64,000 nucleotides of DNA, taken from positions 10,210,501 to 10,274,500 of the forward strand of contig AP031352.1 of assembly GCA_037833965.1 (NCBI GenBank). Reading direction: 5' to 3'. The DNA comes from Marchantia polymorpha subsp. ruderalis (Eukaryota; Streptophyta; Marchantiopsida; Marchantiales; Marchantiaceae). The notes beneath the pieces were generated by a model that worked only from the letters and a program-made list of their open reading frames with translations, ran no database searches and was not told the DNA's origin. The position numbers and the translations under genes were made by a program. Positions 2,739 through 36,569 of the stretch are shown here, in pieces (within the stretch, counting starts at the first letter, position 1; every line of letters begins with the position of its first letter).

Positions 2739-2823
2739 TACAGGTTCCGCGGAGTGTAGTGTAGCGTGGTTCCGTGCAGGCGTGTAGCGTAGTGCAGTGT
2801 AGTGCTAGTTAGGATTTAGAAGG

Positions 2824-2852
2824 TATAAAATAGTTCCAGGCGTTTTGCCTGG
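2824..2852 (+). promoter_or_regulatory. LTR TATA box and downstream hairpin, copy 1
   Basis: TATAAAAT at 2824-2831 is followed by an inverted repeat with arms CCAGGC (2836-2841) and GCCTGG (2847-2852) and loop GTTTT. This is the expected core promoter of the element. The hairpin would lie at or just upstream of the transcript start. Confidence 0.6.
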
Positions 2853-6819: not shown

Positions 6820-6855
6820 CGTAGTGTAGTGTAGTGTTAGTTAGGACTTAGAAGG

Positions 6856-6884
6856 TATAAAATAGTTCCAGGCGTTTTGCCTGG
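6856..6884 (+). promoter_or_regulatory. LTR TATA box and downstream hairpin, copy 2
   Basis: TATAAAAT (6856-6863) is followed by arms CCAGGC and GCCTGG around loop GTTTT (6868-6884), matching copy 1 exactly. Confidence 0.6.
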
Positions 6885-9300: not shown

Positions 9301-9305
9301 CGAAT
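9301..9305. repeat. Target site duplication CGAAT, left
   Basis: CGAAT immediately precedes the LTR terminus TGTAATAACCC at 9306 and recurs at 32495-32499 just after the opposite LTR terminus. This is a 5-bp duplication typical of LTR retrotransposon integration, and it defines the limits of the family A element. Confidence 0.9.
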
Positions 9306-9454
9306 TGTAATAACCCACCAAAGGCTAAAACTGCAGTATGGTGGTAAAAAGATCGAACCCACAGGGACAGAGGCAACACACAGAGTAAAAGTGTCACGTT
9401 TAACAGACTTTTGTAGAGTTTGAATTCTAGGCGACTGTCACTCCCAGAAATACT

Positions 9455-9530
9455 GCAGTGCTCGACTCGGAGGCTCGACTCGGAGGAGGATCTCGACTCG
9501 GAGGATGCTCGGAGGATGCACGGTACAGCG
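9455..9530 (-). repeat. Short tandem repeats in family A U5
   Basis: Several imperfect direct copies of a GGCTCGACTCGGAGG-like unit lie close to the LTR end. The same array is present near 23220-23295 and 27813-27885 in the other family A LTRs, so it belongs to the LTR itself. Confidence 0.7.
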
Positions 9531-10258
9531 TGGTCACTCAACACACACACACACACCTGAAACTGGCAAAAAGCACAACTCGGAGGTCGGTCAGGACCTC
9601 CGCTTCGGATTCAGGAGGAAAGTGTCTCACAAGTTCACTCAGAGGTTCTGCAGGTAGTGCCTCCCACTCCGACTTTTACTGCCCTTCCGCCAGGAACTAG
9701 CGGGGGTACCCGGACTGGACTTCCCACTTCGGAACGAAGCCTCTACATACGCCGTGGACGTCACCCTCGACTATCACACCAAACGCAGGGAGTGCAGACC
9801 CGACTGAGAACTTACTGAAAACACGATCCAGTAACACACACACAACCTGAATTACAAACCAAGGTTTACACGAAGTAATGAAACTTCACATTGGCATTCA
9901 GGGGAAACTTCCCGTAGGAGTACAATCAGGAAATGTCACTCGAAGGAGTAAGGGGGAACTGTTCAAGTATCTAACTCGCAGCCGGCTCTGAGCATCAGAA
10001 ATCACCCGCAGGTGCAGATCCGCACTACTCAAGTCTCTAACCGGGTACTAGCTCTGAACATTCAGCCGAAGGCCTTCAACTACAACATACGGTAACTTCG
10101 CTATGCTGCAGCTTCTCTACGTGGTGCCAGGACCAAAATGCACAAACACGCCAAGAAAGTGAGTTCCTGACCTGCACTTCCGAAACTGGAAGAGTCGCAA
10201 GGCAAAACGCCTTGATCTACTTTATACTCTCAAAGGTCCTAACTAACACTACGCTATC

Positions 10259-13200
10259 CTATCTACCACTCGCAGTATCTGCGCGAAACCAAACTACTCT
10301 ACTGCACTCAGCAGATCCGGTGCTGCGCCTCCTGCGCGCCGGACTGCTCCGCTTACTATCTCTACCTTGCCAGTCTTCCGACCGGCTGCGTAACCCCAGG
10401 CGTCGGAGCGCTGTGGTGACTTCCGACTGTAAGTGCGCCATAGTGTCGCGCGCACCCGACAAGAAGGTTTCTAATTTTCTTGCCACTCGCCGCCGACTCC
10501 GACTGTCACCCTCCGTCAATGCCGCCGCCCGAAGCTCGAACTCCCGGAGTGTAATCCTCTCTTGAGCTGCCACCTCCCAATGGGTGTATCCTTTTAGACA
10601 ACGAGTCACCCGTGCCGCCAACTCTCCTCGCGCCCTGCAGCTGCTCTCCACCTCTGCCAGCTGCATTTCTAATTCCGCACGTTGTGCCCTCAAATCCGAG
10701 CACTCGGATTGCAAGTTGCGCAACAACTCCTCATCCTCCTTGCGGGCTCTTTGACTTTCTTCTAAGGCGCGCGTCTGGCGCGCAAGCTCGGCTGCTAGGA
10801 CTTTGTTCTGTCTCCGCTCCTCCTGCAATTCCGACTCGATCTTTGCCCGTATTAGTTCGGCATCCGCCTGACTTTTCGTCGCCGCATCCTCCTTCTGCTG
10901 CTGCAAGGCTTGGTATAGCTTCTGGGTGACCGCCAGGTGTTGTCGGAGGGCGGTGTTCCTATCCACATATACTTGGCACCTAGAGGCCCACCTTGCCACC
11001 TTGCTCCTCGTCCTTCGCCTGATAGTCTCCACATAAGACTGCGGTTTTAAGGCACTTGCGTATTTGGATGTCTTGCGATCCAGATATCGCAGGAGTGGAA
11101 CTATCTGTTCGCACAGCACCCCTGTTGGCGTTTTCTGCACCGAATCCGCTTCTTGCTCTTCCGAGCTCGTATCATCCTCAGTCTCGAGGATTTCAGTCGC
11201 CACCGAATCCCTTGGCGACTCCCTGGAACTGTGGCGCGCAGCAGCTTCCGCTGCGACTGCTGCTCCACTGCCTGCTAAAATATCCAGGGCAGTGGGAGAT
11301 CCCACTGCTTGAGCCCCTGTTCCGGCTCGATCTTCGGTTTGTGAAGGGGTCGACGCCGCAGTGACTTTTGTCACTCTTGCACCGCCCGCTTCTGCTGCCT
11401 GTCCTTCCGGCGCAATCTGCGCGGAAGGTGTCCTTGCTGAAGGTGCGTCCGCCGAAGGCGTCCGCACACTGGTCGTTGGCCCCATCCGTCTCGCAGTCGG
11501 CGAATCCGGCTGACTCTCTGTTGTCCGACTCGCAGTCGGCCGACCAGCAGTTGTCCGACTGGGAGTCGGATACACCCTGCGCGTCTTGACTCCACTTGGC
11601 CTGCTTGCTGGTGGCGTTCTTCAGGAAGTGCCTTCCGCCGAAGACGACCCTCTGAGGATTGTTGGCTCGTCAGCCAAACTCTCTTCCGCTTCCGGCCTGC
11701 TGTCCGGTTCAACGCGCCGTTCAGTTGGCCTTCCTTCCGCTTGTCGACCTTCAGTCCTCCGACTCGCAGTCGGCCGGCTGTCAGTCCGTCCATCTCCTCC
11801 CGAAGGCCGTGGTGCCTTCTGAGCAGAGGTATCTGCCGTCTTCCCTAGGATCTGCGCGATTATCTCTTCCTGTGTGGGATTCCGCCGGGTCGGAGTACGC
11901 CTGGTCTCCTCAGTAACAGTTGGCATTTTGCGTGCCCTCTGTTTTGGTCGACTGTGAGGCTCGGGGGTGGGCCGACCACGAGTCGGCGCAGCTGGCACTT
12001 CCGGCTGCCTGTCCTCAGGTCTCTCATCCCACTTCCGCTTTCGCGGAATGCGCTCACTTCGACGTTCTTCTGCTGCTCTTGCTGGAGCCGGAGGCGTACT
12101 GGCAGGTTCCTCGTCCGGATCCGTGTCTACTTCGGCCTCCCTTGAATATCTACCTGGATAAGTCCGGGTCAGCTGCAGAAACCGAGTTTTCTCAGCATTC
12201 GTCAAACATCCCATCGCCCGGTAAAACACGATTAAGTAAGGCGATAGATGATTGAGGGTTCCTCCCTTCTCTTCTTGCGCATGTTGGCGCGTCACCTTCC
12301 ACAGGAGCCGTGCCCAATGCACCGGAGCTCCTGACAGCACTAGTGTGGTACCCCACTTTTGGTAATTTTGAGGAAATTAAAACATTTTTGGAAAAAACTG
12401 TACCCTGGCAGCATTGTAAATAGCCTTCGGTACATCAAAACAGAGTGAATCCGGAAGATCGCGGGGATTCTCGAGGGATCTTGTAGAATCTAGGATTTGG
12501 GGTGCAGCAGTAAGGATGGGCACCACCCTCCCTGCGAGCTCTGCAGTTAGGATCCCTGCGCCGCAAGGCGCAAAACCCGCCTTCGGAGGTTGCGTCCGCG
12601 GCGGTAGGTAAATCCTTCATAATTAGGTCAACCCTCGGGCGCCTTGACCAAGTTAGGGTCTCGTTGGAAAGAGCTCGACGCACTGATTCCAACGAGTCCA
12701 AGAACGCTTGGAACGGATGAGGACTTAGGGAGTTATCACTATTGGAAGATACGTAGACGTTCGCCTTCGGCGGAAGGAGTTCGCCACCGGCGGGAATTCC
12801 GCCTACGCGGAAGGGGGAATCAAGTTTTGTCCTATGCGCGGACGAAGGAAGTTCGCCTGTGCACAGGCGAAGTAGGGTTTGGGGAGGCGCGAAGTCCGCC
12901 TACGCACAGGCGTTCGCCTGTGCACAGGCGCTTCGGCGTCGGCGGAAAATCCGCCTTGGGCCCTAGAAATGCGCCTTGTGAGGTAGAAAGTGTACGGCGC
13001 CTTCTGCGCCAGCGCGGCGCCGCGGACGAGCAAGGAGCCGCCAGAGTAATCAAATCCGTACGGACCATGCGGACGGGACGGGTGGATGCGCTCTTGGACG
13101 GACGGAGTGCGGCGGCGGAAGCGCCGACGAAGAGACAAGGAACGGACAGACTGGACGGAGACGGCTGACCACGGTCAACGCCTTCCGCGCCAGCGCGACG

Positions 13201-15672
13201 CCGCGCACGGAATTCGCCTGCGCACAGGCGAGCGCCTGTGCACAGGAGGATGAAGTTCCGCGCCGGCGGAGAATCCGCCGAGGAGTCTGCCTGCGCACAG
13301 GCAAGAGTTGAACTTTTGTCCGACATGCGGACACACGCGTCGAGGCAGAAGGGGATTGGCCGAGGGGCGGTACGAACAAGTGTACCGCGCAAGGCGGAAA
13401 ACTCGCCTTCGGCGCTGCGCTCCCATGTCCGCGGGTTAATACGCTCGCGGAGTTCAAATCCGCCAATTCGAGCGTGAGAGTTTAATCGGCGACGGCGGAG
13501 CGTGAAGCCGCGCGTGAGAGCGGAGACCGTTCCAGCGTAGAGCCGGCGCGGCCATCAAGTGAGACGTCCTCCACGAGCAAGAGCCGACCATGACCTTCGA
13601 CCGGGCGGCGGAGAGCGTCCCATTCTTGAATTCGCGATTCCAATCTCTTGTGCGCGCTGCGCGAGTCCATCTGCTGGCTGCTAAACATTCTCGACGTCGC
13701 CGCACAGGGGATTTCTTGGTGATTGAGGGAGAAGTGAGTGCGCGGGATTTGGAATTGAGGGCGATTAGAGTTTGCCGAGAGAGAAAGGAGCTCGGGCGGT
13801 GCGGAAGTAGAATGAGCGGGCGAGCGAACTCCAGGAACGCAATGACGAGACCGGGCAGATTGCGGATGGTGCCACTTCGCCTACCACAGAACGGGCTGCG
13901 CGCTTTCGAGGAGCGCTTAATAGCAAGAAAGCTCGATTTCTAGCTATGGGGATGGAACTACATCTGTGCGAATATGGTGCGCGAGTGGCTAGAGCCACAG
14001 GGACCACCCTCGCGCGGATTGCGTCCGCATGTTGATCGGTGGACAGTCCAAGATTGGGCGCAGGCATTGGGAAGATGTGCCGGCATGCCAGGGCATCTCC
14101 TTTTCGACAGTGAGAGCATCAAGGTGACCAAGCAGGAAGAGGCGCAATTTGTGGAGCTGTTCAAGACCGGGAGGTCTACCAAGAATGGGTACAGGACCCG
14201 TGATTACAAGGATCGATTTCGCCGGACTTTGTCCGCGGCGCTGATGCAATTACTGCAGCCACACCGCGCCTGCTACATCACATTGTGGCAGGTCTCTTTT
14301 GTGGAGTGCGTCATCGAGGGAACTCCAATTCACTGGGCGAGCATCCTGCACAGGGTGATGCGACAGCACGCTTTTGAGGAGAAGGGGGGAACTCTAAACC
14401 ATCTCTCTCCTTTCCTCATCAATTTTTATCGACAGCGGAATTGTTTGACAGCGGCGGAGCTTGAGCATTTTCCGCCGTTATCCGTCGACCATCCCGGGAA
14501 GTATGTGCGGGAGAATGAGGTCGACACTGATGCAGAGGAGTCACCGACTTCTACCCCATCAAGGCGGAGGGACGAAGGGAGAAACACTCCTGCAGCGCGA
14601 GTGCCGCGGAAGCGGCGATGGAGAGAAGAGTCCGAAGAGGAGCAGCATCAAGAACCCTCTGCTCCCATTCGACCGCGGCCGTTGTACGAGTCATACAGCC
14701 GGCCGAAGCAGAAGGCACGCAGACTGGTGTTACCAGCCAACAGTGCGGACACGGCGACGATTGCGACGGAGAAAGGAAGTGCGTCGCCAGAGAAGCATGA
14801 GGAAGCGCGGACGACCGCAGGAGCAACGGACCACGCTGCAGCCTCGACGGGCGAGAGGCCGCCTACGGGCCAAAGGCCTCCGGAGTTACCACGTGCGTTG
14901 CGGACAGGTGTTCCGTTTGCGCACAGACGAGACTCCGCGGACGGACGAGCCTCCGCGGACAGACGATCACAAGTGGACGTAGATCTACGCTTACGCGTGG
15001 GAAGGAGCAGTCCGCCTGTGCACAGGCGCTCGCGTGTGCACAGGTCGCCTGTGCACAGGTCACCTCCACACGTGCCGCCTGTGCACAGGCAGGAATCACC
15101 CCCGTTCCAACGTAGGAAGGGGAAGGAGCCGGCGGAAGAGCCGCCTACGAGACACCGGCCCTCGGGGCCACACCCTCCGGCGCACCACGCGCCGCAATTT
15201 GCGCTCTCTAGCCAAACTCTACCTGCCAACCATGCATGTAAGCGGTCTTGGTCGGCTGCAATATCTGCAGCAATGCCGTCGCGACATTTCTCCGCAATCG
15301 ATCCTTGTAATCCCGTGTCCGGAAACCGTTCTTGGGATGTCTGGCAACTTTGAAGAGCTCATTGTAAGAGACTTCTTCCTCCTGGGACACCTTCACGCTA
15401 TCGGCCTCGAAGAGGAGATCCCCTTCCTCGCCGGCACACCTGCCCAACACCTGCGCCCAATTGCAAATGTCCCATCTCTCTGGGTGTGGGCGGAATCCGC
15501 GAGAAGGCTTGTGTTTCTCCTGCAGATACTCGCGCACCATCTCCGGACATGTCCAGTTCCACCCCCATAGGAGAAAATCGAGCTTCAGCCTCAGCAGCAC
15601 ATCTTGAAATGCGCGTAGACCGATCTGCGGCACCCTGAGTGGAGACACTCGTAGCTGGGGAACCTTCGACAT
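10259..15672 (-). CDS. U3 ORF of family A 3' LTR, interrupted by family B fragment
   Basis: This is the family A counterpart of the family B U3 protein. The conserved N-terminal part lies at 15672-15208 and the linker, acidic patch and coiled coil at 12343-10259, with the family B fragment inserted between. The N-terminal motifs LDFLLWGWN and RTRDYKDR are shared with family B. This copy is broken, chiefly by the insertion. Confidence 0.6.
12344..15207 (+). mobile_element. Family B LTR fragment nested in family A 3' LTR
   Basis: The fragment begins with TGTGGTACCCCACTTTTGG, giving the true start of a family B LTR, and continues with sequence matching 1-2700 and then 5080-5300 of the family B tract. 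The uninterrupted family A LTR at 30700 shows the empty site, which proves the insertion. CTAG lies at both junctions, but the right junction is not clean, so a full target duplication is unproven. The copy is incomplete, with about two or three breaks. Confidence 0.85.
13590..15206 (+). CDS. U3 ORF remnant of nested family B fragment
   Basis: This stretch is similar to the first half of the 1008-residue family B protein, including LDFLL, RTRDYKDR and GGTLNHLSP, and then the palindrome-bearing linker. It is broken and incomplete. It is useful only as a third copy for comparing conservation of the N-terminal domain. Confidence 0.5.
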
Positions 15673-16999
15673 TGCGTTGCCTGCACACACACAAACGTTC
15701 TCCCTTTCGCTCGCTCTCTCACAATCGCCACTGCGCGTCGGCCACTCAAGCACTGACTGCTCACTCTCTCTGCGCTCGTTCAAGATCGCTACTCACAATT
15801 CTTTCAAGGTCCGCCAAGATCCTTGCGCAACTCGTCTCCGCACTCTCTACTCTCACTGCAGGTCGCTCCGCCCTTGCGCGTAATCTTGGAAACTGGAAAT
15901 CGCAAAGTCAAGAATGAGAGAATGAGACTGGAGCGCAGTCTTTTCTTCTCCGATTTCAAGAACGTCCAACGTTCTTACTGGTTGCAACGTACGCAGCCGG
16001 CTATACGGCTTAACGGTTCGCCCTTTGCATGCGCGAATTCACGTCTCCGCACTGCGCGCATTCGCATGCTTAAACGTTGAATTCTCCCGCCGCCGCCACC
16101 TTCCGGACTCGAGTCCGCTGCAGGGTATATGTCGGCCCTGGCGGGTCGCCGCTGGTGCGTTCATTATCCGTCGGCGCCTTGCTGGAGGCGCACATCCAGC
16201 CGGAGCGAATTACGCCGGCGCGCAGTCGTACCGCCTATTTTTTCCTTTATGCCTCGTCCGTTGCTGCCGGCGTATATCTGTCGGCGCAACTCATGCCAGC
16301 GCATCCGGCCGTCAGCGCCACGTCGGAGGCGTACATCCGACCGGCGCTTTCCTTCCATGAACAGCCGCCAAAGGCGCTTCCGACTCTGAGTTGGTTTCCT
16401 CCTATGAGCGCGTGATTCCGCCGAAGGCGCATCGCCGAGGGCGTACGGGAATCCTTTCCGGCTGTGAACCCTAGCGCGAACGGCGCATGTCCGGCTATGA
16501 GTTTTCCGACGCTCATAACTTCTCCATTCCTGATCCATCTCCGACGCTCTTGGTCTCGTTAGAACGAGCGTCCCGAGCTCTCTCTAATGCAACTTCAACC
16601 AACTGGATCTACCGTGTATCCCGATTGTTATGAAGGTTTCCCCTTTCCGCGCTAGCGGCGCTTCGCCGAAGGCGCACTCATGGTCGGACGCCTTTAGAGG
16701 TCCGGGCCCTTCTCCTGACGTCTTTAGCAAAACCTCCTCCTGAGGTGTCTGCGCCGGAAGCGTAGCTTCCTTATACGCTGGAGGCGCGTGAGTAGAGACA
16801 CCTCAAAAAGGAGCTTTTGCCGAAGGCGTCGAAGACGTTGGCGTTGGTACATCCGACTACATGATTCTTTGTGCCCTCGTGACGATCTCATCAATCCACT
16901 CTATTTAGCATACCCTTCTCTAGCTACAAACACTGCTTTGGTACTAGTTTTCTAAAATTGTTTAAATTCTGCAAAAAAACAAAAAAGTGTGTTCCCACA

Positions 17000-17012
17000 T
17001 GCCCCCCTCCTC
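17000..17012 (-). promoter_or_regulatory. Polypurine tract of family A element
   Basis: On the minus strand GAGGAGGGGGGCA abuts the first base (TG) of the 3' LTR. This is the expected primer for plus-strand DNA synthesis in an LTR element. Confidence 0.8.
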
Positions 17013-17036: not shown

Positions 17037-18576
17037 TTACACGTGGTATTTCTTCAGACGCCATCCGTTCACGCGGGTGCCTAACCATTCTCCCGTCAGT
17101 TCTACGAGTTGGATGGATCCATTTGGAAAAACTTCTATCACCTTGTAAGGTCCCATCCACCTCAAGTGGAGCTTGCCTGGAAATCGAGCATGTCTGCTAT
17201 CGTATAGCAGAGCCAAGTCGCCCTTCTCCAGCAGTACTGGTTTGAGTCTTCGATCGTACTTCTCCTTCCGCCTGAGTTGTAATTGCTTTGTTCGATCTTC
17301 GGCCTCTTGACGTCTTTCCTCCAATGCCATTACCTCTTGCAGTCGATATGCCTGACTTTCCTCCGCGTCCAGCCTTCTCTGATCTAAGGTCCTCTTCGTA
17401 GGTATTTCAAATTCGATGGGTAAGATCGGATGCTGCCCATAAACTAGAAAGTAAGGTGTTTGCCTGGTGGTGACTTTTTCTGCCGTTCTATATGCCCATA
17501 AGGCGGCCGGTAGCTTGGTGTCCCAGTCATGAGCATGGTTGACAGTCACCTTGAGGAGTATCTTACAGAGTAATCCATTGGACTTCTCTGTCAGACCATT
17601 CGCCTTGGGGTTGTATGGAGTAGTCTTCCGATGCTTAATCTGGAAGTGCCGCGTCAAACTCTCTATCACCTGATTCAGAAAGTGCGTTCCCCTGTCACTG
17701 ACTATTTCTAGGGGGCACCCGTAGCGTGTGATGATGGATTCGAATAGGAACCGTGCTATTGCGGCTGCGTCGTCGTGCCTTGTGGCCTCTGCCTCCACCA
17801 TCTTGGTCGCATAGTCTGTTGCTACCAATATGTAGCGCCTGCGCGTGCCTTTAGTGACAGGTTGTATTGGTCCCACGAAGTCGATCCCCCATTTTTCAAA
17901 TGGTGCCAATGGCATGATTGGTGTAAGAGGCCATCTCGTGGTCGGAGTCGGCCTTCCCGTCCTCTGGCAGCTGTCGCATTTGCGAACGTAGTCGTGTACA
18001 TCTTTGAACATCGTCGGCCACCAGTATCCTGCATTCACAATTTTGGTCACTGTATTTCTGGTGGCGTAGTGACCACCAGCGTCTTCTGTGTGCATGGCTT
18101 TGACAACTCGCGGGACTTCGGACTCCTCTAGACATCTGCACAACCTCTCGTCTGCCATTTTCTTGAACAAGACCCCTTGTTGAAGCTGGTAAGGTCCCGC
18201 TTTATGAACGAATACTGTGCGCTGCTCCGCATCCAATCCTTCCGGACATTGGAGTGTGAGTAGAAACCTGTATAAGTCCGCGTACCTGGACTCATGGCTG
18301 GCGGACAACTGAAAAAGTTGTTCGTCGGGAAAATCATCCACTACTTCCTCCTCTATGGGTTCGGTCCGTAGTCGGGAGAGGTAGTCCGCGTTCTCATGGT
18401 GAACGCCTTTCCGTGTCTGTACAGTGTAGGTGAATTCCTGCAGCAGTAGTACCCACCTGGCAATTCGTCCGGACAGATCCGCCTTCTTCACCAGGTGCTG
18501 TAAGGCGTAATGATCTACATGAAACACGAACTCATAGCAGATCAAATAATGTCGGAACTTCTTACAGGAGTACACC
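17037..18576 (-). CDS. Family A pol, 3' part: RNase H end and integrase
   Basis: The end of RNase H (FHVDHYALQHL; HHENADYLSRL) is followed by the integrase zinc finger (His-His-Cys-Cys, ending CDSCQRTG), the catalytic core (GIDFVGPI, TDYATKMVEAEA, SDRGTHFLNQV and a following Glu in PYNPKANGLTEKSNG) and a C-terminal domain ending in LRWMGPYKVIEVFPNGS. No chromodomain is seen before the end. The solo LTR inserted at 18577-23445 separates this part from the RT part. Confidence 0.9.
18572..18576. repeat. Target site duplication ACACC, left
   Basis: ACACC precedes TGTGGTAACACAC at 18577 and is repeated at 23446-23450 right after TTATTACA. This shows that 18577-23445 arrived as one LTR-bounded insertion. 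Confidence 0.9.
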
Positions 18577-18770
18577 TGTGGTAACACACTTTTTGTTTTT
18601 TTTGCAGAATTTAAACAATTTTAGAAAACTAGTACCAAAGCAGTGTTTGTAGCTAGAGAAGGGTACGCTAAATAGAGTGGATTGATGAGATCGTCACGAG
18701 GGCACAAAGAATCACGTAGTCGGATGTACCAACGCCAACGTCTTCGGCGCCTTCGGCAAAAGCTCCTTTT

Positions 18771-18835
18771 TGAGGTGTCTCTATTCACGCGCCTCTAGCG
18801 TATAAGGAAGCTACGCTTCCGGCGCAGACACCTCA
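18771..18835 (+). repeat. Nested inverted repeat in family A LTR leader
   Basis: Outer arms TGAGGTGTCT (18771-18780) and AGACACCTCA (18826-18835) enclose a second hairpin, GGAAGC-TAC-GCTTCC (18806-18820). The same structure is kept in both LTRs of the full element (near 16742-16807 and 32236-32301). It may be a folded element or protein-binding site; its role is unknown. Confidence 0.7.
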
Positions 18836-19930
18836 GGAGGAGGTTTTGCTAAAGACGTCAGGAGAAGGGCCCGGACCTCTAAAGGCATCCGACCATGAGT
18901 GCGCCTTCGGCGAAGCGCCACTAGCGCGGAAAGGGAAAACCTTCATAACAATCGGGATACACGGTAGATCCAGTTGGTTGAAAATGCATTAGAAAGAGCT
19001 CGGGATGCTCGTTCTAACGAGTCCAAGAGCGTCGGAGATGGATCAGGAATGGAGAAGTTATGAGCGTTGGAAAACTCGTAGCCGGACATGCGCCGTTCGC
19101 GCTAGGGTTCACAGCCGGAAAGGATTCCCGTACGCCCTCGGCGATGCGCCTTCGGTGGAATCACGCGCTCATAGGAGGAAACCCACTCAGAGTCGGAAGC
19201 GCCTTTGGCGGCTGTTCATGGAAGGAAAGCGCCGGTCGGATGTACGCCTCCGACGTGGCGCTGACGGCCGGATGCGCTGGCATGAGTTGCGCTGGCGGAT
19301 ATGCGCCGGCAGCAACGGACGAGGCATAAAGGACAAAATAGGCGGTACGACTGCGCGCCGGCGTAATTCGATCCGACTGGATGTGCGCCTCCAGCAAGGC
19401 GCCGACGGATAATGAACGCACCAGCGGCGACACGCCTCCGGAGAAGGGCGGGTTAGGAAAAGACAACAGGGCCGACGTATACCCTGCAGCGGACTCGAGT
19501 CCGGAAGGTGGCGGCGGCGGGAGAATTCAACGTTTAAGCATGCGAATGCGCGCAATGCGGAGACGTGAATTCGCGCATGCAAAGGGCGAACCGTTAAGCC
19601 GTATAGCCGGCTGCGTACGTTGCAACCAGTAAGAACGTTGGACGTTCTTGAAATCGGAGAAGAAAAGACTGCGCTCCAGTCTCATTCTCTCATTCTTGAC
19701 TTTGCAATTTCCAGTTCCAAGATTACGCGCAAGGACGGAGCGACCTGCAGTGAGAGTAGAGAGGGCGGAGACTAGTTGCGCAAGGATCTTGGCGGACCTT
19801 GAAAGAATTGGGAGTAGCGATCTTGAACGAGCGCAGAGAGAGTAAGCAGTCAGTGCTTGAGTGACCGACGCGCAGTGGCGATTGTGAGAGAGAGAGCGAA
19901 AGGGAGAACGTTTGTGTGTGCAGGCAACGC

Positions 19931-22487
19931 AATGTCGAAGGTTCCCCAGCTGCGAGTGTCTCCACTCAGGGTGCCGCAGATCGGTCTACGCGCATTTCAA
20001 GATGTGCTGTTGAGGCTGAAGCTCGATTTTCTCCTCTAGGGGTGGAATTGGACATGTCCGGAGATGGTGCGCGAGTATCTGCAAGAGAGACACAAGCCTT
20101 CTCGCGGATTTCGCCCACACCCAGAGAGATGGGACATTTGCAATTGGGCGCAGGTGTTGGGCAGGTGTGCCGGCGAGGAAGGGGATCTCCTCTTCGAGGC
20201 CGACAGCGTGAAAGTGTCCCAGGAGGAAGAAGTCTCTTACAATGAGCTCTTCAAGGTGGCTAGACATCCCAAGAACGGTTTCCGGACACGGGATTACAAG
20301 GATCGATTGCGGAGAAATGTCGCGACGGCATTGCTGCAGATATTGCAGCCGACCAAGACCGCTTACATGCATGGTTGGCAGGTAGAGTTCGTGGAGCTAG
20401 TGTTGTCAGGAGCTCCGGTGCATTGGGCACGGCTCCTGTGGAAGGTGACGCGCCAACATGCGCAAGAAGAGAGGGGAGGAACGCTCAATCATCTATCGCC
20501 TTACTTAATCGTGTTTTACCGGGCGATGGGATGTTTGACGAATGCTGAGAAAACTCGGTTTCCGCAGCTGACCCGGACTTATCCAGGTAGATATTCGAGG
20601 GAGGCCGAAGTAGACACGGATCCGGACGAGGAACCTGCCAGTACGCCTCCGGCTCCGGCTCCAGCAAGAGCAGCAGAAGAACGTCGAAGTGAGCGCATTC
20701 CGCGAAAGCGGAAGTGGGATGAGAGACCTGAGGACAGGCAGCCGGAAGTACCAGCTGCGCCGACTCGTGGTCGGCCCACCCCCGAGCCTCACAGTCGACC
20801 AAAACAGAGGGCACGCAAAATGCCAACTGTTACTGAGGAGACCAGGCGAACTCCGACCCGGCGGAATCTCACACAGGAAGAGATAATCGCTCAGATCCTA
20901 GGGAAGACGGCAGAAACCTCTGCACAGAAGGCACCACGGCCTTCGGGAGGAGATGGACGGACTGACGGCCGGCCGACTGAGAGTCGGATGACTGAAGGTC
21001 GACAAGCGGAAGGAAGGCCAACTGAACGGCGCGTTGAACCGGACAGCAGGCCGGAAGCAGAAGAGAGTTTGGCTGACGAGCCAACAATCCTCAGAGGGTC
21101 GTCTTCGGCGGAAGGCACTTCTGGAAGAACGCCACCAGCAAGCAGGCCAAGTGGAGTCAAGACGCGCAGGGTGTATCCGACTCCCAGTCGGACAACTGCT
21201 GGTCGGCCGACTGCGAGTCGGACAACAGAGAGTCAGTCGGATTCGCCGACTGCGAGACGGATGGGGCCAACGACGAGTGTGCGGACGCCTTCGGCGGACG
21301 CACCTTCAGCCAGGACACCTTCCGCGCAGATTGCGCCGGAAGGACAGGCAGCAGAAGCGGGCGGATCAAGAGTGACAAAAGTCACTGCGGCGTCGACCCC
21401 TTCACAAACCGAAGATCAAGCCGGAACAGGGGCTCAAGCAGTGGGATCTCCCACTGCCCTGGATATTTTAGCAGGCAGTGGAGCAGCAGCCGCAGCGGAA
21501 GCTACTGCGCGCCACAGTTCCAGGGAGTCGCCAAGGGATTCGGTGGCGACTGAGATCCTCGAGACTGAGGATGAGACGAGCTCGGAAGAGCAAGAAGAGG
21601 ATTCGGTGCAGAAAACGCCAACAGGGGTGCTGTGCGAACAGATAGTTCCACTCCTGCGATATCTGGATCGCAAGACATCCAAATACGCAAGTGCCTTAAA
21701 ACCGCAGTCTTATGTGGAGACAATCAGGCGAAGGACGAGGAGCAAGGTGGCAAGGTGGGCCTCTAGGTGCGGAGTATATGTGGATAGGAACACCGCCCTC
21801 CGACAACACCTGGCGGTCACCCAGAAGCTATACCAAGCCTTGCAGCAGCAGAAGGAGGATGCGGCGACGAAGAGTCAGGCGGAGGCCGAGCTAATACGGG
21901 CAAAGATCGAGTCGGACTTGCAGGAGGAGCGGAGACAGAACACAGTCCTAGCAGCCGAGCTTGCGCGCCAGACGCGCGCCTTAGAAGAAAGTCAAAGAGC
22001 CCGCAAGGAGGATGAGGAGTTGTTGCGCAACTTGCAAACCGAGTGCTCGGATTTGAGGGCACAACGTGCGGAATTAGAAATGCAGCTGGCAGAGGTGGAG
22101 AGCAGCTGCAGGGCACGAGGAGAGTTGGCGGCACGGGTGACTCGTTGTCTAAACGGATACACCCATTGGGAGGTGGCAGCTCAAGAGAGGGTTACACTCC
22201 GGGAGTTCGAGCTTCGGGCGGCGGCCTTGACGGAAGGTGACAGTCGGAGTCGGCGGCGAGTGGCGAGAAAATTAGAAACTTTCTTGTCGGGTGCGCGCGA
22301 CACTATGGCGCACTTGCAGTCGGAAGTCACTGCAGCGCTCCGACGCCTGGGGTTACGCAGCCGGTCGGAAGACTGGCAAGGTAGAGACAGTAAGCGGAGC
22401 AGTCCGGCGCGCAGGAGGCGCAGCACCGGATCTGCTGAGTGCAGTAGAGTAGCTTGGTTTCGCGCAGATGCTGCGAGTGGTAGATAG
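19931..22487 (+). CDS. U3-encoded protein of family A, solo LTR copy
   Basis: This copy encodes about 850 residues and is lightly broken (about one break); 807 codons read open from 20064. It starts with the domain shared with family B (LDFLL, WAQVLGRCAG, RTRDYKDR, HWARLLWKVTRQHA, GGTLNHLSP). A Pro/Thr/Arg-rich linker with CCGACT...AGTCGG palindromes and an acidic stretch follow. The C-terminal half has the PLLRYLDRK block, a long Gln/Glu/Arg-rich coiled coil and the HWEVAAQE-TLREFELRAA block. The ORF stops 33 bases before the TATA box. A CAG preceded by a GT-rich run lies just before the ATG, so a spliced message is possible but unproven. Confidence 0.62.
20760..21221 (+). repeat. Dispersed CCGACT-NNN-AGTCGG palindromes in family A U3 ORF
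   Basis: Units with six-base arms and three-base loops lie at 20973-20987 (loop GAG), 21177-21191 (loop CCC) and 21207-21221 (loop GCG), with a near match at 20760-20774. The arms are kept while the loops vary. They lie in the variable linker, the same place where family B carries its own, unrelated palindrome. Confidence 0.75.
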
Positions 22488-22520
22488 GATAGCGTAGTGC
22501 TAGTTAGGATCTTTTGAGAG

Positions 22521-22549
22521 TATAAAGTAGATCAAGGCGTTTTGCCTTG
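22521..22549 (+). promoter_or_regulatory. Family A LTR TATA box and downstream hairpin
   Basis: TATAAAG (22521-22527) is followed by arms CAAGGC (22533-22538) and GCCTTG (22544-22549) around loop GTTTT. Relative to family B, one base pair of the stem is changed on both sides (C:G to A:T), so the pairing is kept. Confidence 0.65.
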
Positions 22550-23445
22550 GGACTCTTCCAGTTTCGGAAGTGCAGATCAGGAACTCACTTTCTTGGCGTG
22601 TTTGTGCATTTTGGTCCTGGCACCACGTAGAGAAGCTGCAGCATAGCGAAGTTACCGTATGTTGTAGTTGAAGGCCTTCGGCTGAATGTTCAGAGCTCGC
22701 ACCCGGTTAGAGACTTGAGTAGTGCGGATCTGCACCTGCGGGTGATTTCTGATGCTCAGAGCCGGCTGCGAGTTAGAGACTTGAACAGTTCCCCCTTACT
22801 CCTTCGAGTGACATATCCTGATTGTACTCCTACGGGAAGTTTCCCCTGAATGCCAATGTGAAGTTTCATTACTTCGTGTAAACCTTGGTTTGTAATTCAG
22901 GTTGTGTGTGTGTTACTGGATCGTGTTTTCAGTAAGTTCTCAGTCGGGTCTGCACTCCCTGCGTTTTGTGTGATAGTCGAGGGTGACGTCCACGGCGTAC
23001 GTAGAGGCTTCGTTCCGAAGTGAGAAGTCCAGTCCGGGTACCCCCGCTAGTTCCTGGCGGAAGGGCAGTAAAAGCCGGAGTGGGAGGCACTTCCTGCAGA
23101 ACCTCTGAGTGAACTTGCGAGACACTTTCCTCCTGAAATCCGAAGCGGAGGTCCTGACCGACCTCCGAGTTGTGCTTTTTGCCAGTTTCAGGTGTGTGTG
23201 TGTGTGTGTTGAGTGACCAAGCTGTACCGTGCATCCTCCGAGCATCCTCCGAGTTGAGATCCTCCTCCGAGTCGAGCCTCCGAGTCGAGCACTGCAGTAT
23301 TTCTGGGAGTGACAGTCGCCTAGAATTCAAACTCTACCAAAGTCTGTTAAAACGTGACATTTTTACTCTGTGTGTTGCCTCTGTCCCTGTGGGTTCGATC
23401 TTTTTACCACCATACTGCAGTTTTAGCCTTTGGTGGGTTATTACA

Positions 23446-23450
23446 ACACC
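23446..23450. repeat. Target site duplication ACACC, right
   Basis: This is the second copy of the ACACC flank of the solo LTR; see 18572-18576. Confidence 0.9.
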
Positions 23451-24652
23451 ATTCCCAACGCCTCCCTCTCAGTTGTCGTGTACTTCTTCTCTGCTGCTGA
23501 CAACTGACGACTCGCGAAGTAAATCGGGTAGTCTTTCTTGTTGTCGTCCTTCTGACTGAGAACCACTCCGATTGCAAATGCCGACGTGTCTACATAGACA
23601 TGGAAAGGTCTGTTCCAATCCGGACTTCTCAGAACCGGAGCAGTCGTCAGTTTGGCTTTGAGCGTTTCAAAGGCCAGCTGTTGCTTTTCGCCCCACACAT
23701 AGGGTTCCTCCTTCTTAAGCAGCTTCGTCAGATCGGCTGCCAAGATGGCGTACATATTTATGAACCTTCTGTAATAACCTACATGGCCAAGGAAGGCCCT
23801 CAACTCACGCAGATTCGTTGGCGGCTGTAGTTCGAGAATAATCTTCACCTTCTCTACATCCACTGCAATGCCATCGGACGAAACTCGGTGCCCTAGCAGG
23901 ATTCCGCTGGTCATGAAGAAAAAACATTTCTCAGGGTGTAAGGACAAGCTGCTCTCCCTACATCTGTCGAACGTTTGCCGAAGATGGTTAAGGTGCTCCG
24001 ACCTCTTACCGAAGACACAAAAGTCGTCGATGAAAATTTCTAGGAACTTCCTCAGGTGCTCTTGGAAGATGTTTGTCATCATCCGCTGGAACGTCGCTGG
24101 CGCGTTGCACAGACCGAACGGCATCTTGTGATAAGCATAGGTTCCCCAGTCGGTCGTGAAGGTTGTTTTGTCCTTGTCCTGTTCCCTGATGGACACCTGG
24201 TTGTAGCCGGAGAATCCGTCTAGGAAGCTGTAGCATTCATGCCCTGCTACATGGTCCAGAATAGAGTCCGTGAAAGGAAGAGGGTGATGGTCCTTCCTCG
24301 TTGCTGCGTTCAGCTTTCGGAAGTCCTGGCACACCCGGATCTTACCCGTCAGTTTCTTGGGCACAATCACGATAGGCGACACCCACTCGCTACTGAGTAC
24401 CGGGTAGATGATTCCTGCGCTCAGGTACTTATCGATTTCGTCCTTCACCAATAATGAATATTTTGGGTTGAGCCTGTATTGGCGTTGGCGAACCGGAACT
24501 GCCTCGTCCAACAAGTCGATCCTGTGCTCTCCATACCTTGCAGGTATGCCTTTCATGTCTTCAATCTTCCATGCGAAGACATCCTCATACTGGCGAAGAA
24601 ACGCCTGTACCCTGTTCAACTCTTCTCCTTGTACCTGGCTTGACACCTTCAA
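23451..24652 (-). CDS. Family A pol, 5' part: reverse transcriptase and start of RNase H
   Basis: RT motifs appear in order: PVRQRQYRLNP, WVSPIVIVPKK, RVCQDFRKLNAATRKDHHPLP, FLDGFSGYNQV, PFGLCNAPATFQRMM, FIDDFCVF (the YxDD box in its FIDD form), HPEKC and FLGHVGYYRRFI. The RNase H start follows (FHVYVDTSAFAIGVVLSQ, YFASRQLSAAEKKYTTTERE). This is typical Ty3/gypsy pol. The solo LTR insertion separates it from the integrase part at 17037-18576. Confidence 0.93.
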
Positions 24653-24751: not shown

Positions 24752-27580
24752 CTATTCGTCATCCGGATACACCTCGTCTCCTTCCTCCTCAATGGAGCAG
24801 CAAGTGACGTAGCCCACAAATTCCTCCGACGTTTCGGTCTCTGAAGTGCATGATGAGCTGGTCTCCCCTCCGGTTGTGTAACCGGAGGTGGTGGAAGGTG
24901 TTTCGCCCTCATGGGGTACCTTGGTCCACGGTACGGTAATGACAGTCGGAGGGTCCGCAAGGCTACGGAACTGTAATCTCTTCCTACTCCAGTCACACCT
25001 TGCTTTGGCATCGTATAGCCATGGTCTGCCAAGCAGCACATCATAACCTTTCTTCATCAGAGGTTGCAGTATTATGTAGGACAGTTGAAAGTCCACTCCT
25101 CCAATGTTGGTTCTCACATTGCTCAACATTCCTAGTGGCATTCTGCGTGTTTGATCGGCCAGTCGCAATACTCGGGATGTAGGCTCGAAGGTCTGGAACC
25201 CCAAGGAGTTCGCTGTCTCCTCGGTCATGATATTCACGCCCGAGCCGGAGTCCACAGGTACCTTCTGTATGACGCAGCCTCCGATCTCTACTTCGATCTC
25301 TGGAGGTCCCAGGTCTCCTCCTTCCACTCTGTACACAGCCGGAAGTTTCTCTTTTCGGGGTTTGCGTGGTCGGCGCAACGAAAGCATCAGCATCCTCCTG
25401 TACGTCTTATTGTCTTCCAACAACTGGCGGAAGGAAATATTTGCCCTCTGGCTCCCCATGTCTTCCACTATGTCGTAGGAAGTGTTGGAAGTCACAGCCG
25501 GAAGTTTCCCTGTACTCGCGGTCGGAAGTGGTGTAGGGGGCCTAACCGCCTTCCGGTCGTCGGATGTCATTCCGGCGCCCAGTGCTTTCTTGATGAGGTG
25601 ACTCACCTCATCTTTGATGTCCGGAAGGTAATCTCGAGTCCGGGACTCTTCCGAATACCTGTCCGCCTTCTCTGAGCTCTGCTCCGGCTGGGTGTTTCTC
25701 ATAGCCGGAGGTGTACCCGGCCTCCTTCTTTGGCCTTCTCTAACTTCTTTAGACTTCCTCCTCTCTTCTCTACGCTCGAGGCGGCGAGTGTCCTCGTGAC
25801 CTTCTCCCCTCCTCTTCGAACTTCGGGTTTCTACCCGACCGCACATTACTTCTTCCTCTGGCCATACTTCGTTTCCTTCAGCTGGGTCCAGACTCAGTTC
25901 TACCTGGTTGACCTGCACCTCTTCCTTGCCAGGTGTCGATACGAAACGCACTGCTGGCCTAGGGAGTTGTGGCTGATCACATTCGGCTACTGTATGTCCA
26001 GACTTCTTGCAATTACTGCACAACGGTGCATACCCCATTGGCTTCCTCGGGTGGGGACAGCTTGGCGCGTAATGCCCCATGTCTCCGCAGTTGTAGCAAC
26101 CATCGAATTGTGGTCGAGGTCGGTTGTGATTGCCTGGAGGTGCCATGCGTCTTGGTGGGAGTGTACCTGCCATTTCCCTCGGAACATAGCGCGGTATATG
26201 CACCGGTGGGTTCGGAGTTGTAGCTGGAGCTGTCTGTACCGAGTAGGCGGTGTCCTCAACCTGCTCAGCATAATACATAGGTGGCTCAGCATAATACATG
26301 GGGTTCTCCCACTGTGGTGCCCATTCGACCGCATTCACTGGGTAAGATGGCCGCGCGGACATGCACTCCGTGTTGGCATGTCCCACCTGTCCGCACGTAG
26401 TACACCAGAGATTCGCTCGTTGTCTCGCAGGTGATTTACGTCGGTCTTGGCCTCCCACTACATGAACTTTCAGGTCCGCAAAATTCTTCACCAGGTTGTC
26501 TACCTTGGCTGCGATGTCCCCTTGAGTCTTCACTGGGATTCCCTTACCTCGATCCTTCTTCTTGATCGCACTGCGTTTCTTCTTCCGTCTTTCTTCTTCT
26601 GAAGATGACGAGTCCTCTTCCTCTTCCGAGGAAGAACTTGATTCGGAGGAGCTTGATTCTTCTGTCGAGGAAGGCGAGTTCCTTCTCTTCCGACGTCCGC
26701 CTTGCGACTTCTTCTTCGTCGACCGTCGGTCGCGTCTTCGAGTGTCAAGGGTTGACGTCTCAAAGGTCTCCGCGGAAGCTATCACATCTTGGATTGTGTC
26801 AGTCTTGCCTCTCCTACAGAAGGTCTCCATTTCTCTTGAGAGCCCTGTCACATACCAATCCACTGCCTGTTGTACCGAGTATGGTTCTCCCGGGCCTGTC
26901 TTCGGAATTCGATCTAGGAGGTCTTGGAATCTCTCAGTGTAGTCTCGAAGATTCTCCTTCCGCTCGCGTCGAAGATTTCGAAGCCGGGTCAGAACTCGAC
27001 TGTCATATCCGAGTTCGCGGAACCGCCTCAGAAACTTTTCCTTGAGCTGAGCCCAGGTCCGGATGCCAGTGGGGTCGGTGCTCTCATGGTTGTACCAGCT
27101 ACGCGCTCGTCTGCGTAGCAGGCTAGGAAAGATTCGTAGTCTGTCTTCATCACTGGTCTCACGATTGGCGATGGAGACAGACTCGAAGAGCTTTATGTAT
27201 GAATCTGCATCATCGTCGTCGCCCGTTCCCGTGTATCTTGGATACGAATGTTTGGTGGTAGGTTGGGAAAACACCTGGCGGAGATTGGCTTGATGTTCTG
27301 CCATCGGTGATCCTGTCGACGGACTGATCCTAGGTCGGCCAAACTCAGGAAGAGTTCCTGTCGGAGGGATGTCCAATAGGACTGTTAGCTCAATGCTCTC
27401 GGTAGGTGAACTGGAACGCCTTTGTCTTCCAGTAGTCGGTGATGGCGATCTTTCTGCAGAGTCCTCACCGGGAGTCTTCTTTTTAGTTCGCCGTTTTGTT
27501 TCCACGGCTTTTTCTGAATCTCGACGGAGTTTCCGTGTGGCTCTCGCACTCAGGTTTCCCACACTATCGCTCGTCGACAT
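24752..27580 (-). CDS. Family A gag-protease ORF (942 residues)
   Basis: A Retrotrans_gag-type capsid region (about residues 100-270, with SWYN, FLRRFRELGYDS and DYTERFQDLL) is followed by a basic/Ser-Glu-rich stretch (about 285-345). Three CCHC zinc knuckles come next (CTTCGQVGHANTEC, CYNCGDMGHYAPSC, CSNCKKSGHTVAEC). An aspartic protease with VDSGSGVNIM and the late motif VLLGRPWL lies near the C-terminus. Pol begins shortly downstream. The frame is open throughout. Confidence 0.93.
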   Translation of the reverse strand: MSTSDSVGNLSARATRKLRRDSEKAVETKRRTKKKTPGEDSAERSPSPTTGRQRRSSSPTESIELTVLLDIPPTGTLPEFGRPRISPSTGSPMAEHQANLRQVFSQPTTKHSYPRYTGTGDDDDADSYIKLFESVSIANRETSDEDRLRIFPSLLRRRARSWYNHESTDPTGIRTWAQLKEKFLRRFRELGYDSRVLTRLRNLRRERKENLRDYTERFQDLLDRIPKTGPGEPYSVQQAVDWYVTGLSREMETFCRRGKTDTIQDVIASAETFETSTLDTRRRDRRSTKKKSQGGRRKRRNSPSSTEESSSSESSSSSEEEEDSSSSEEERRKKKRSAIKKKDRGKGIPVKTQGDIAAKVDNLVKNFADLKVHVVGGQDRRKSPARQRANLWCTTCGQVGHANTECMSARPSYPVNAVEWAPQWENPMYYAEPPMYYAEQVEDTAYSVQTAPATTPNPPVHIPRYVPREMAGTLPPRRMAPPGNHNRPRPQFDGCYNCGDMGHYAPSCPHPRKPMGYAPLCSNCKKSGHTVAECDQPQLPRPAVRFVSTPGKEEVQVNQVELSLDPAEGNEVWPEEEVMCGRVETRSSKRRGEGHEDTRRLERREERRKSKEVREGQRRRPGTPPAMRNTQPEQSSEKADRYSEESRTRDYLPDIKDEVSHLIKKALGAGMTSDDRKAVRPPTPLPTASTGKLPAVTSNTSYDIVEDMGSQRANISFRQLLEDNKTYRRMLMLSLRRPRKPRKEKLPAVYRVEGGDLGPPEIEVEIGGCVIQKVPVDSGSGVNIMTEETANSLGFQTFEPTSRVLRLADQTRRMPLGMLSNVRTNIGGVDFQLSYIILQPLMKKGYDVLLGRPWLYDAKARCDWSRKRLQFRSLADPPTVITVPWTKVPHEGETPSTTSGYTTGGETSSSCTSETETSEEFVGYVTCCSIEEEGDEVYPDDE

Positions 27581-27623: not shown

Positions 27624-27641
27624 TCCCCGGCAGCGGCGCCA
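27624..27641 (-). promoter_or_regulatory. Primer binding site, tRNA-Asp type
   Basis: On the minus strand TGGCGCCGCTGCCGGGGA lies 22 bases inside the 5' LTR end. It is complementary, with one mismatch, to the 3' end of plant tRNA-Asp(GTC) as I recall it. Athila/Tat elements commonly use this primer. Confidence 0.8.
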
Positions 27642-27663: not shown

Positions 27664-30600
27664 TGTAATAACCCACCAAAGGCTAAAACTGCAGTATGGT
27701 GGTAAAAAGATCGAACCCACAGGGACAGAGGCAACACACAGAGTAAAAGTGTCACGTTTAACAGACTTTTGTAGAGTTTGAATTCTAGGCGACTGTCACT
27801 CCCAGAAATACTGCAGTGCTCGACTCGGAGGCTCGACTCGGAGGAGGATCTCAACTCGGAGGATGCTCGGAGGATGCACGGTACAGCGTGGTCACTCAAC
27901 ACACACACACACACCTGAAACTGGCAAAAAGCACAACTCGGAGGTCGGTCAGGACCTCCGCTTCGGATTTCAGGAGGAAAGTGTCTCACAAGTTCACTCA
28001 GAGGTTCTGCAGGTAGTGCCTCCCACTCCGGCTTTTACTGCCCTTCCGCCAGGAACTAGCGGGGGTACCCGGACTGGACTTCCCACTTCGGAACGAAGCC
28101 TCTACATACGCCGTGGACGTCACCCTCGACTATCACACCAAACGCAGGGAGTGCAGACCCGACTGAGAACTTACTGAAAACACGATCCAGTAACACACAC
28201 ACAACCTGAATTACAAACCAAGGTTTACACGAAGTAATGAAACTTCACATTGGCATTCAGGGGAAACTTCCCGTAGGAGTACAATCAGGAAATGTCACTC
28301 GAAGGAGTAAGGGGGAACTGTTCAAGTATCTAACTCGCAGCCGGCTCTGAGCATCAGAAATCACCCGCAGGTGCAGATCCGCACTACTCAAGTCTCTAAC
28401 CGGGTACTAGCTCTGAACATTCAGCCGAAGGCCTTCAACTACAACATACGGTAACTTCGCTATGCTGCAGCTTCTCTACGTGGTGCCAGGACCAAAATGC
28501 ACAAACACGCCAAGAAAGTGAGTTCCTGACCTGCACTTCCGAAACTGGAAGAGTCGCAAGGCAAAACGCCTTGATCTACTTTATACTCTCAAAGGTCCTA
28601 ACTAACACTACGCTATCCTATCTACCACTCGCAGTATCTGCGCGAAACCAAACTACTCTACTGCACTCAGCAGATCCGGTGCTGCGCCTCCTGCGCGCCG
28701 GACTGCTCCGCTTACTATCTCTACCTTGCCAGTCTTCCGACCGGCTGCGTAACCCCAGGCGTCGGAGCGCTGTGGTGACTTCCGACTGTAAGTGCGCCAT
28801 AGTGTCGCGCGCACCCGACAAGAAGGTTTCTAATTTTCTTGCCACTCGCCGCCGACTCCGACTGTCACCCTCCGTCAATGCCGCCGCCCGAAGCTCGAAC
28901 TCCCGGAGTGTAATCCTCTCTTGAGCTGCCACCTCCCAATGGGTGTATCCTTTTAGACAACGAGTCACCCGTGCCGCCAACTCTCCTCGCGCCCTGCAGC
29001 TGCTCTCCACCTCTGCCAGCTGCATTTCTAATTCCGCACGTTGTGCCCTCAAATCCGAGCACTCGGATTGCAAGTTGCGCAACAACTCCTCATCCTCCTT
29101 GCGGGCTCTTTGACTTTCTTCTAAGGCGCGCGTCTGGCGCGCAAGCTCGGCTGCTAGGACTTTGTTCTGTCTCCGCTCCTCCTGCAATTCCGACTCGATC
29201 TTTGCCCGTATTAGTTCGGCATCCGCCTGACTTTTCGTCGCCGCATCCTCCTTCTGCTGCTGCAAGGCTTGGTATAGCTTCTGGGTGACCGCCAGGTGTT
29301 GTCGGAGGGCGGTGTTCCTATCCACATATACTTGGCACCTAGAGGCCCACCTTGCCACCTTGCTCCTCGTCCTTCGCCTGATAGTCTCCACATAAGACTG
29401 CGGTTTTAAGGCACTTGCGTATTTGGATGTCTTGCGATCCAGATATCGCAGGAGTGGAACTATCTGTTCGCACAGCACCCCTGTTGGCGTTTTTTGCACC
29501 GAATCCGCTTCTTGCTCTTCCGAGCTCGTATCATCCTCAGTCTCGAGGATTTCAGTCGCCACCGAATCCCTTGGCGACTCCCTGGAACTGTGGCGCGCAG
29601 CAGCTTCCGCTGCGACTGCTGCTCCACTGCCTGCTAAAATATCCAGGGCAGTGGGAGATCCCACTGCTTGAGCCCCTGTTCCGGCTCGATCTTCGGTTTG
29701 TGAAGGGGTCGACGCCGCAGTGACTTTTGTCACTCTTGCACCGCCCGCTTCTGCTGCCTGTCCTTCCGGCGCAATCTGCGCGGAAGGTGTCCTTGCTGAA
29801 GGTGCGTCCGCCGAAGGCGTCCGCACACTGGTCGTTGGCCCCATCCGTCTCGCAGTCGGCGAATCCGGCTGACTCTCTGTTGTCCGACTCGCAGTCGGCC
29901 GACCAGTTGTTGTCCGACTGGGAGTCGGATACACCCTGCGCGTCTTGACTCCACTTGGCCTGCTTGCTGGTGGCGTTCTTCAGGAAGTGCCTTCCGCCGA
30001 AGACGACCCTCTGAGGATTGTTGGCTCGTCAGCCAAACTCTCTTCCGCTTCCGGCCTGCTGTCCGGTTCAACGCGCCGTTCAGTTGGCCTTCCTTCCGCT
30101 TGTCGACCTTCAGTCATCCGACTCGCAGTCGGCCGGCTGTCAGTCCGTCCATCTCCTCCCGAAGGCCGTGGTGCCTTCTGAGCAGAGGTATCTGCCGTCT
30201 TCCCTAGGATCTGCGCGATTATCTCTTCCTGTGTGGGATTCCGCCGGGTCGGAGTACGCCTGGTCTCCTCAGTAACAGTTGGCATTTTGCGTGCCCTCTG
30301 TTTTGGTCGACTGTGAGGCTCGGGGGTGGGCCGACCACGAGTCGGCGCAGCTGGCACTTCCGGCTGCCTGTCCTCAGGTCTCTCATCCCACTTCCGCTTT
30401 CGCGGAATGCGCTCACTTCGACGTTCTTCTGCTGCTCTTGCTGGAGCCGGAGGCGTACTGGCAGGTTCCTCGTCCGGATCCGTGTCTACTTCGGCCTCCC
30501 TTGAATATCTACCTGGATAAGTCCGGGTCAGCTGCGGAAACCGAGTTTTCTCAGCATTCGTCAAACATCCCATCGCCCGGTAAAACACGATTAAGTAAGG

Positions 30601-36565: not shown

Positions 36566-36569
36566 TAAT

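Follow-up and report, generated by a model that had tools for sequence, protein, structure and literature searches.

Features of the locus

We analysed a window of 64,000 nucleotides from the liverwort Marchantia polymorpha subsp. ruderalis (contig AP031352.1, positions 10,210,501 to 10,274,500; coordinates below are window positions unless another contig or locus is named), with a focus on the segment at 18577..23445 of its plus strand. This segment is a solo long terminal repeat (LTR) of a retrotransposon family, here termed family A, which is nested in an element of the same family and carries a long open reading frame in its U3 region. The LTR starts with TGTGGTAAC (first letters TGTGG), finishes with TTACA, and is flanked by a target-site duplication, ACACC, at 18572..18576 and 23446..23450. 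Its length of exactly 4,869 bp and its TG...CA ends bear out a previous reading of the letters alone (hereafter, the sequence-only reading), which had proposed giant family A LTRs of about 4.8 kb.

Read from left to right, the solo LTR consists of a U3 leader (18577..19931), the U3 gene (19932..22487), a TATA-like box of the presumed LTR promoter (TATAAAG, 22521..22527) and a presumed R-U5 region, taken to span 22528..23445, all on the plus strand; a hairpin, CAAGGC...GCCTTG (22533-22549, plus strand), lies 3' of the TATA-like box. As far as this TATA motif marks the promoter, the gene lies in U3. In this copy, the frame is free of stops for 807 amino acids, from 20064 to 22487; read from the ATG at 19932, which is common to families A and B, it is broken once near its N-terminus, by an in-frame stop at residue 36.

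The solo LTR interrupts the pol region of a minus-strand family A element, with whose LTR it shares 96.7% identity in a self-alignment of the window. On the minus strand, this element comprises a 5' LTR (27664..32494), in which an in-frame stop at residue 396 is the sole break of the U3 frame; a primer-binding site (PBS), TGGCGCCGCTGCCGGGGA, located 22 nt inside the 5' LTR (27624..27641); a gag-protease frame with Retrotrans_gag, zinc knuckles and an aspartyl protease (24752..27580); the reverse transcriptase-ribonuclease H (RNase H) part of pol, cut by the solo LTR (23441..24652); the remaining RNase H and the integrase (17037..18587); and a polypurine tract (PPT), GAGGAGGGGGGCA, between the integrase and the 3' LTR (17000..17012). 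The sequence GGGGGGCA precedes 3' LTRs at other genome loci too. Self-alignment placed the 3' LTR in two parts, 15213..16999 and 9305..12343 (both minus strand), split by a fragment of a second LTR family, B; the 5' and 3' LTRs differ by 17 mismatches in 4,826 aligned columns. Only 37 bases separate the end of the integrase frame from the 3' LTR, so that no space is left for a downstream gene outside the LTR, and since the PPT directly follows the integrase, all sequence downstream of pol is LTR. The U3 frame runs on the gag-pol strand, as the sequence-only reading had it, in this element's own LTRs, but not in the solo copy relative to its neighbours.

Three stretches of family B LTR were also present on the plus strand: an LTR beginning left of the window (1..3792), whose U3 gene carries a deletion; the right part of a second LTR (3793..7830), whose U3 gene is open from the ATG at 3919 to the stop at 6819; and, by self-alignment, the fragment within the A 3' LTR (12344..15212). 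In the long B copy, the 1008-residue frame at 3793-6819 named in the sequence-only reading is not the extent of the gene: another B LTR ends at 3793, and the TTG there marks a junction rather than a gene start. The ATG at 3919, common with A, gives 966 amino acids, and an upstream ATG (1203 in the neighbouring B copy) may serve as the family B start. A third LTR family, C, has the same gene layout as A and B (locus L059, 5975-8635, minus strand) and is more diverged, the 149 matches listed besides the query being 78-93% identical. The proposal that the frame stands before the LTR's own TATA box proved right for both families and extends to the third: the interval from the stop codon to the box is 33 bases in A, 36 in B (TATAAAA at 6856 in the long copy) and 21 in C. 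An AG located 6-8 nt before the ATG in A, B and C is a lead towards a possible splice acceptor, with a weak pyrimidine tract.

Coding nature of the U3 frame

The region is GC-rich (58-62%), the window has other long frames, and the U3 protein lacks a known domain, all of which would suit a frame left open by chance in such LTR DNA, or a functionless captured non-coding piece. To set against this, the longest stop-free run is 815 codons in A and 1008 in B, versus maxima of 382 and 361 codons, respectively, in dinucleotide shuffles; none of the 300 shuffles made for each family reached the observed length.

The copies in the window provide the cleanest test of constraint, because they were chosen without a protein score. 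Differences at codon positions 1, 2 and 3 amounted to 13/12/41 between the solo A copy and the 5' LTR (p = 1.6e-6), and to 5/2/26, 15/10/42 and 20/14/40 for the B copies (B2-B1, B2-B3 and B1-B3, respectively). Third positions were favoured in all four comparisons (p = 1.9e-4 to 1.1e-7), of which the three among B copies share sequences and are not independent. Flanking sequence was unbiased, with counts of 14/11/10 in the A leader, 6/4/6 in the A R-U5 and 36/32/28 in the B1-B3 leader. Gaps within the frame measured 6, 3, 3, 15 and 3 bp, with the exception of one 19-bp gap between B1 and B3, where the second sequence was taken longer; those in the flanks were mostly of 1 or 2 bp, the two larger ones measuring 3 and 31 bp.

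Between families A and B, the two end regions (487 codons) showed a proportion of synonymous differences (pS) of 0.77 and of non-synonymous differences (pN) of 0.31 in the true frame; as synonymous change is saturated at this distance, we give no exact ratio of non-synonymous to synonymous rates (dN/dS) for the end regions. In the N-terminal region, dN/dS was 0.15 at a dS of 2.5. The five alternative frames gave dN/dS values of 0.34 to 1.86, the lowest for reverse frame 2, which has its third codon positions at the same bases as the true frame. Amino-acid identity between A and B was 58% in the N-terminal region, 42% in the linker and 54% in the C-terminal region, in agreement with the proposal of conserved ends and a diverged linker. 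By comparison, the U3 leaders of A and B were 49.5% alike, versus 44% with one shuffled B partner, and the stretch from the TATA motif to the LTR end was 76-86% identical among A, B and C.

The excess of synonymous change that the sequence-only reading had asked to be sought between the families is thus present, and its suggestion of selection on the protein is upheld both by pS and pN and by the third-position bias of the window copies in A and in B. The shuffles, the codon-position tests and the A-B values of pS and pN rule out a chance open frame, and the 58% identity of the N-terminal region despite near-saturated synonymous sites leaves a functionless origin extremely improbable. On these comparisons of sequence, the U3 frame is protein-coding and under constraint.

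The predicted protein and the palindromes

The proteins of A and B share one domain order, as had been proposed: a conserved N-terminal domain of about 235 residues, a linker rich in proline, serine and arginine, an acidic patch, a coiled coil, and a C-terminal part with a basic tail. The tail, RRRRST, is found in the conserved C-terminal part of A, B and C, and a motif PRKR[RK] (PRKRRW or PRKRKW), common to the three families, stands just after the N-terminal domain; we take it to resemble a nuclear localisation signal. For the C-terminal part, AlphaFold2 predicted a single helix of 144 residues, with a predicted local distance difference test score (pLDDT) of at least 90 at 109 of 305 residues. 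A fold search with this coiled-coil model (E up to 10) returned 31 viral matches, of which none reached 0.001 or better. A search of the genome with the PF20167 profile gave no match, but the control was equally silent, so that little is shown by this result. An origin of the protein from gag was rejected, as its best BLASTP match to the gag frame of the element was not significant (E 0.65).

Taken at the level of motifs and predicted structure, the U3 protein is probably a nuclear, coiled-coil-forming, trans-acting factor. It could also be a structural or env-like particle protein made with gag, rather than a nuclear regulator: the long coiled coil might equally be structural, and the accessible text of PMC11963269 describes plant extra or env-like frames in the internal region, on either side of gag-pol. 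This alternative seems to us unlikely, although worth keeping in mind, given the conserved motifs resembling nuclear localisation signals and the lack of significant gag similarity.

The sequence-only reading had described the linker as built of palindromes in both families. This is true of B only. The window contained 25 palindromes like GCCTGTGCACAGGC, where 0.11 would be expected, and every one lay in B copies (spans 463-5518 and 12855-15090); the same search gave no match in the family A copies of the window. In B, moreover, they sit in the non-coding U3 leader as well as in the coding linker. All 10 spacings between neighbouring palindromes of the coding linker were multiples of three, as were 5 out of 10 in the leader, although the B copies are related and these events are not independent. 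The palindrome CGCCTGTGCACAGGCG was found at 5,032 places genome-wide. Given their presence in the leader and throughout the genome, the B linker is partly made of sequence that has also multiplied beyond the gene.

Copies across the genome

The genome searched comprised 241.5 Mb in 9 contigs. Each of two actin primers published for M. polymorpha (PMC4370483) had a single match in it, and together they delimit 108 bp, in keeping with the amplicon size in print; this fits M. polymorpha or a very close relative. With the A protein, 56 places were scored out of 13,376 first-look candidates, and 50 of these were taken further together with their LTRs, the copy in the window (L009) being one of them; the six omitted were four tandem-array neighbours, one place on a repeated part of contig C1 and one without such a reason. 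Because places were ranked by protein score, the figures on intactness and conservation for A are biased towards conservation. Among these best-scoring places, 39 out of 50 had a frame of at least 845 amino acids (38 of 851 and one of 853), 10 were broken and one lacked a recognisable start. Pooled dN/dS was 0.29 among the 38 of the 39 full frames that were equal in length (N-terminal region 0.20, linker 0.44, C-terminal region 0.23). For family B, 43 of 47 places among the matches listed had no stop in the matched stretch (counted by eye), and ten pairs of listed matches lay 11.1-11.25 kb apart on the same strand, as expected for two LTRs of one element. The frame is therefore not restricted to the window copies, a doubt that the sequence-only reading had itself raised; there are many further genome copies, in three families, and both complete and solo copies exist.

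Of the 50 A LTRs, 22 were solo copies flanked by a perfect 5-bp duplication, and the full frame was present in 16 of them. Eight others were 5' LTRs with a PBS and six were 3' LTRs with a PPT; one was joined to internal sequence on both sides, one was solo-like (4 out of 5 bases matching) and 12 could not be assigned. A complete element was recognised at C4:21498667-21514196, with a PBS after one LTR (L011), a PPT before the other (L012) and TCCTC at both outer ends; an alignment of its two LTRs has 2 substitutions and 2 gap columns. Genome-wide, exact matches numbered 5,767 for a 20-base LTR end, 1,217 for a 19-base PBS (one T longer than TGGCGCCGCTGCCGGGGA), and 459 for the 31-base family A LTR-PBS junction. 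LTR ends beyond two per PBS therefore amount to about 2.7 per PBS ((5,767 - 2 x 1,217)/1,217), a rough ratio, as truncated or mutated copies and other families with the same PBS interfere.

The number of solo LTRs with perfect duplications and full frames, and the surplus of LTR ends over PBS sites, might suggest that solo LTRs are non-autonomous insertions mobilised in trans, the LTR spreading as a unit of its own. The same structure, however, arises by recombination between two LTRs; the ratio of solo to complete copies is reported to correlate with LTR length (accessible part of PMC7251063, citing Du et al. 2012); and a solo LTR, having neither PBS nor PPT, offers no obvious route for reverse transcription. 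Independent spreading of the LTR is thus very unlikely.

Several repeated arrangements were also observed. Tandem arrays with a 10.66-kb period, corresponding to about one LTR plus an internal region, were found at C7:486795-510529, C6:10774136-10806418 and C6:9761851-9783974. At C5:13295215-13305252 and C7:21528769-21535742, U5 matches recurred every 3,080 and 3,088 bp, which suggests that a shortened unit is arrayed in tandem there. Contig C1 (5.6 Mb) has equal-scoring matches offset by about 406 kb and about 342 kb (at 2408133, 2814502 and 3157024, with more such triplets), an indication that a large segment is present in triplicate.

Other features of the window

The frame at 42069-43091 has an NLI-interacting-factor-like phosphatase domain and is probably a host gene. 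A GC-rich region at 34616-36620 contains long overlapping frames on both strands and matched neither the fetched LTR loci nor Pfam.

Relation to known elements

The family belongs with Ty3/Gypsy elements in its LTRs, which have TG...CA ends and a target duplication in the complete element on C4 and in solo copies, and in its internal region, where PBS, PPT, gag and the order protease-reverse transcriptase-RNase H-integrase were found in the window element, whose pol is interrupted. The PBS agrees with TGGCGCCG.TGCCGGGGA, which we take to be the type of the OTA group (Ogre/Tat/Athila).

The closest parallel in gene placement is sag of mouse mammary tumour virus (MMTV), an accessory gene that lies completely within U3, occurs in both LTRs and is upstream of the LTR promoter. 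As in MMTV, the whole liverwort gene stands in U3 before the LTR promoter, recognised here by its TATA motif alone. Unlike sag, it belongs to a Ty3-type plant element and encodes a protein of about 850-970 amino acids with a coiled coil, and no superantigen family was among its Pfam matches at E up to 1. The bel genes of foamy viruses and lentiviral nef are accessory genes that likewise reach into U3 but are only partly inside the LTR, whereas the liverwort gene lies in U3 entirely.

Among plant elements, the Tat clade is marked by an additional RNase H domain (PMC6317226, accessible text); a search of the three gag-pol frames (E up to 10) found no second RNase H, a test weakened by the interrupted pol and by limited Pfam sensitivity. 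According to the accessible parts of PMC7264820 and PMC11963269, Grande, RIRE2 and Retand have an additional antisense frame between pol and the 3' LTR, that of Retand carries transposase_28, and a nuclear function has been suggested for some additional frames of plant Ty3-type elements. The liverwort family resembles these in having an extra gene beside pol, but differs in that its gene is in sense orientation and inside U3, and in that no Pfam match to Transposase_28 or the related Transposase_32 was found in its protein. In rice, Retrosat2, RIRE3 and RIRE8 combine LTRs at least about 3 kb long with an ORF0 (open reading frame 0) of unknown function upstream of gag-pol (PMC3485330, accessible text). 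Long LTRs and an extra gene of unknown function are shared features; the liverwort gene, however, is in the LTR, and ORF0 is not described there as part of it. The accessible parts of PMC11963269 and PMC7264820 place the additional frames of plant elements in the internal region rather than the LTR. Our literature search found no plant gene wholly inside an LTR, although most subscription papers fell outside its coverage and a printed case is possible.

Proposed explanation and meaning

We consider it fairly likely that this is a Ty3-type LTR retrotransposon with a full accessory gene wholly in U3, copied into both LTRs. We infer the transcript structure, nuclear role and history of this gene as follows. 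As it lies between the left end of the LTR and the promoter, only its copy in the 3' LTR is downstream of the element's promoter. That copy would form the final cistron of the genomic RNA (R-U5-PBS-gag-pol-PPT-U3 gene-R), expressed by splicing or internal initiation. Reverse transcription would duplicate it into both LTRs, and LTR-LTR recombination would yield a solo LTR retaining one copy. In the simplest history, a gene that once separated pol from the 3' LTR, the arrangement in related plant elements, would have become part of U3. The protein would act in trans for the element, in transcription, anti-silencing or nuclear steps of integration.

Several observations weigh against this explanation. 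The ranking of A copies by protein similarity inflates their intactness and lowers the dN/dS of 0.29, and the two window A frames that were tested, those of the solo LTR and the 5' LTR, are each broken by a stop. In family C, 116 of 150 places among the matches listed had stops in the matched 208-residue stretch (counted by eye). The N-domain model is poor (pLDDT 41) and unfit for a fold search, and sequence searches of the U3 protein against Pfam, NCBIfam and PDB gave no convincing domain match, weak matches below cut-off being read as chance or coiled-coil similarity; a nuclear or trans-acting role consequently rests on short motifs. The decay of family C has a second side, however: it is what would be expected from selection on active source elements. 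Together with the appearance of constraint in parallel families, it makes it most improbable that the host has co-opted the LTR protein and that selection serves the host, even though many intact copies persist, solo LTRs included.

Within the preferred explanation, that of an element with its own U3 gene, the protein might be an activator or anti-silencing factor for its own LTR families, whose LTRs would form a genome-wide regulatory network. We put this forward tentatively, as the less probable extension. Solo LTRs would keep supplying the protein, since the LTR is where the gene is located. If this is true, thousands of dispersed LTRs would join with a minority of complete elements, and the loss of gag-pol by recombination would not bring a copy's contribution to an end.

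LTRs are usually viewed as control DNA that does not code for protein. In this model liverwort, the LTRs of very abundant elements contain a constrained gene of about 850-970 codons, which persists in solo copies. The gene would bring a plant example to a placement best known from MMTV and would supply a reason for the giant LTRs, and it makes testable whether solo LTRs can remain protein-producing.

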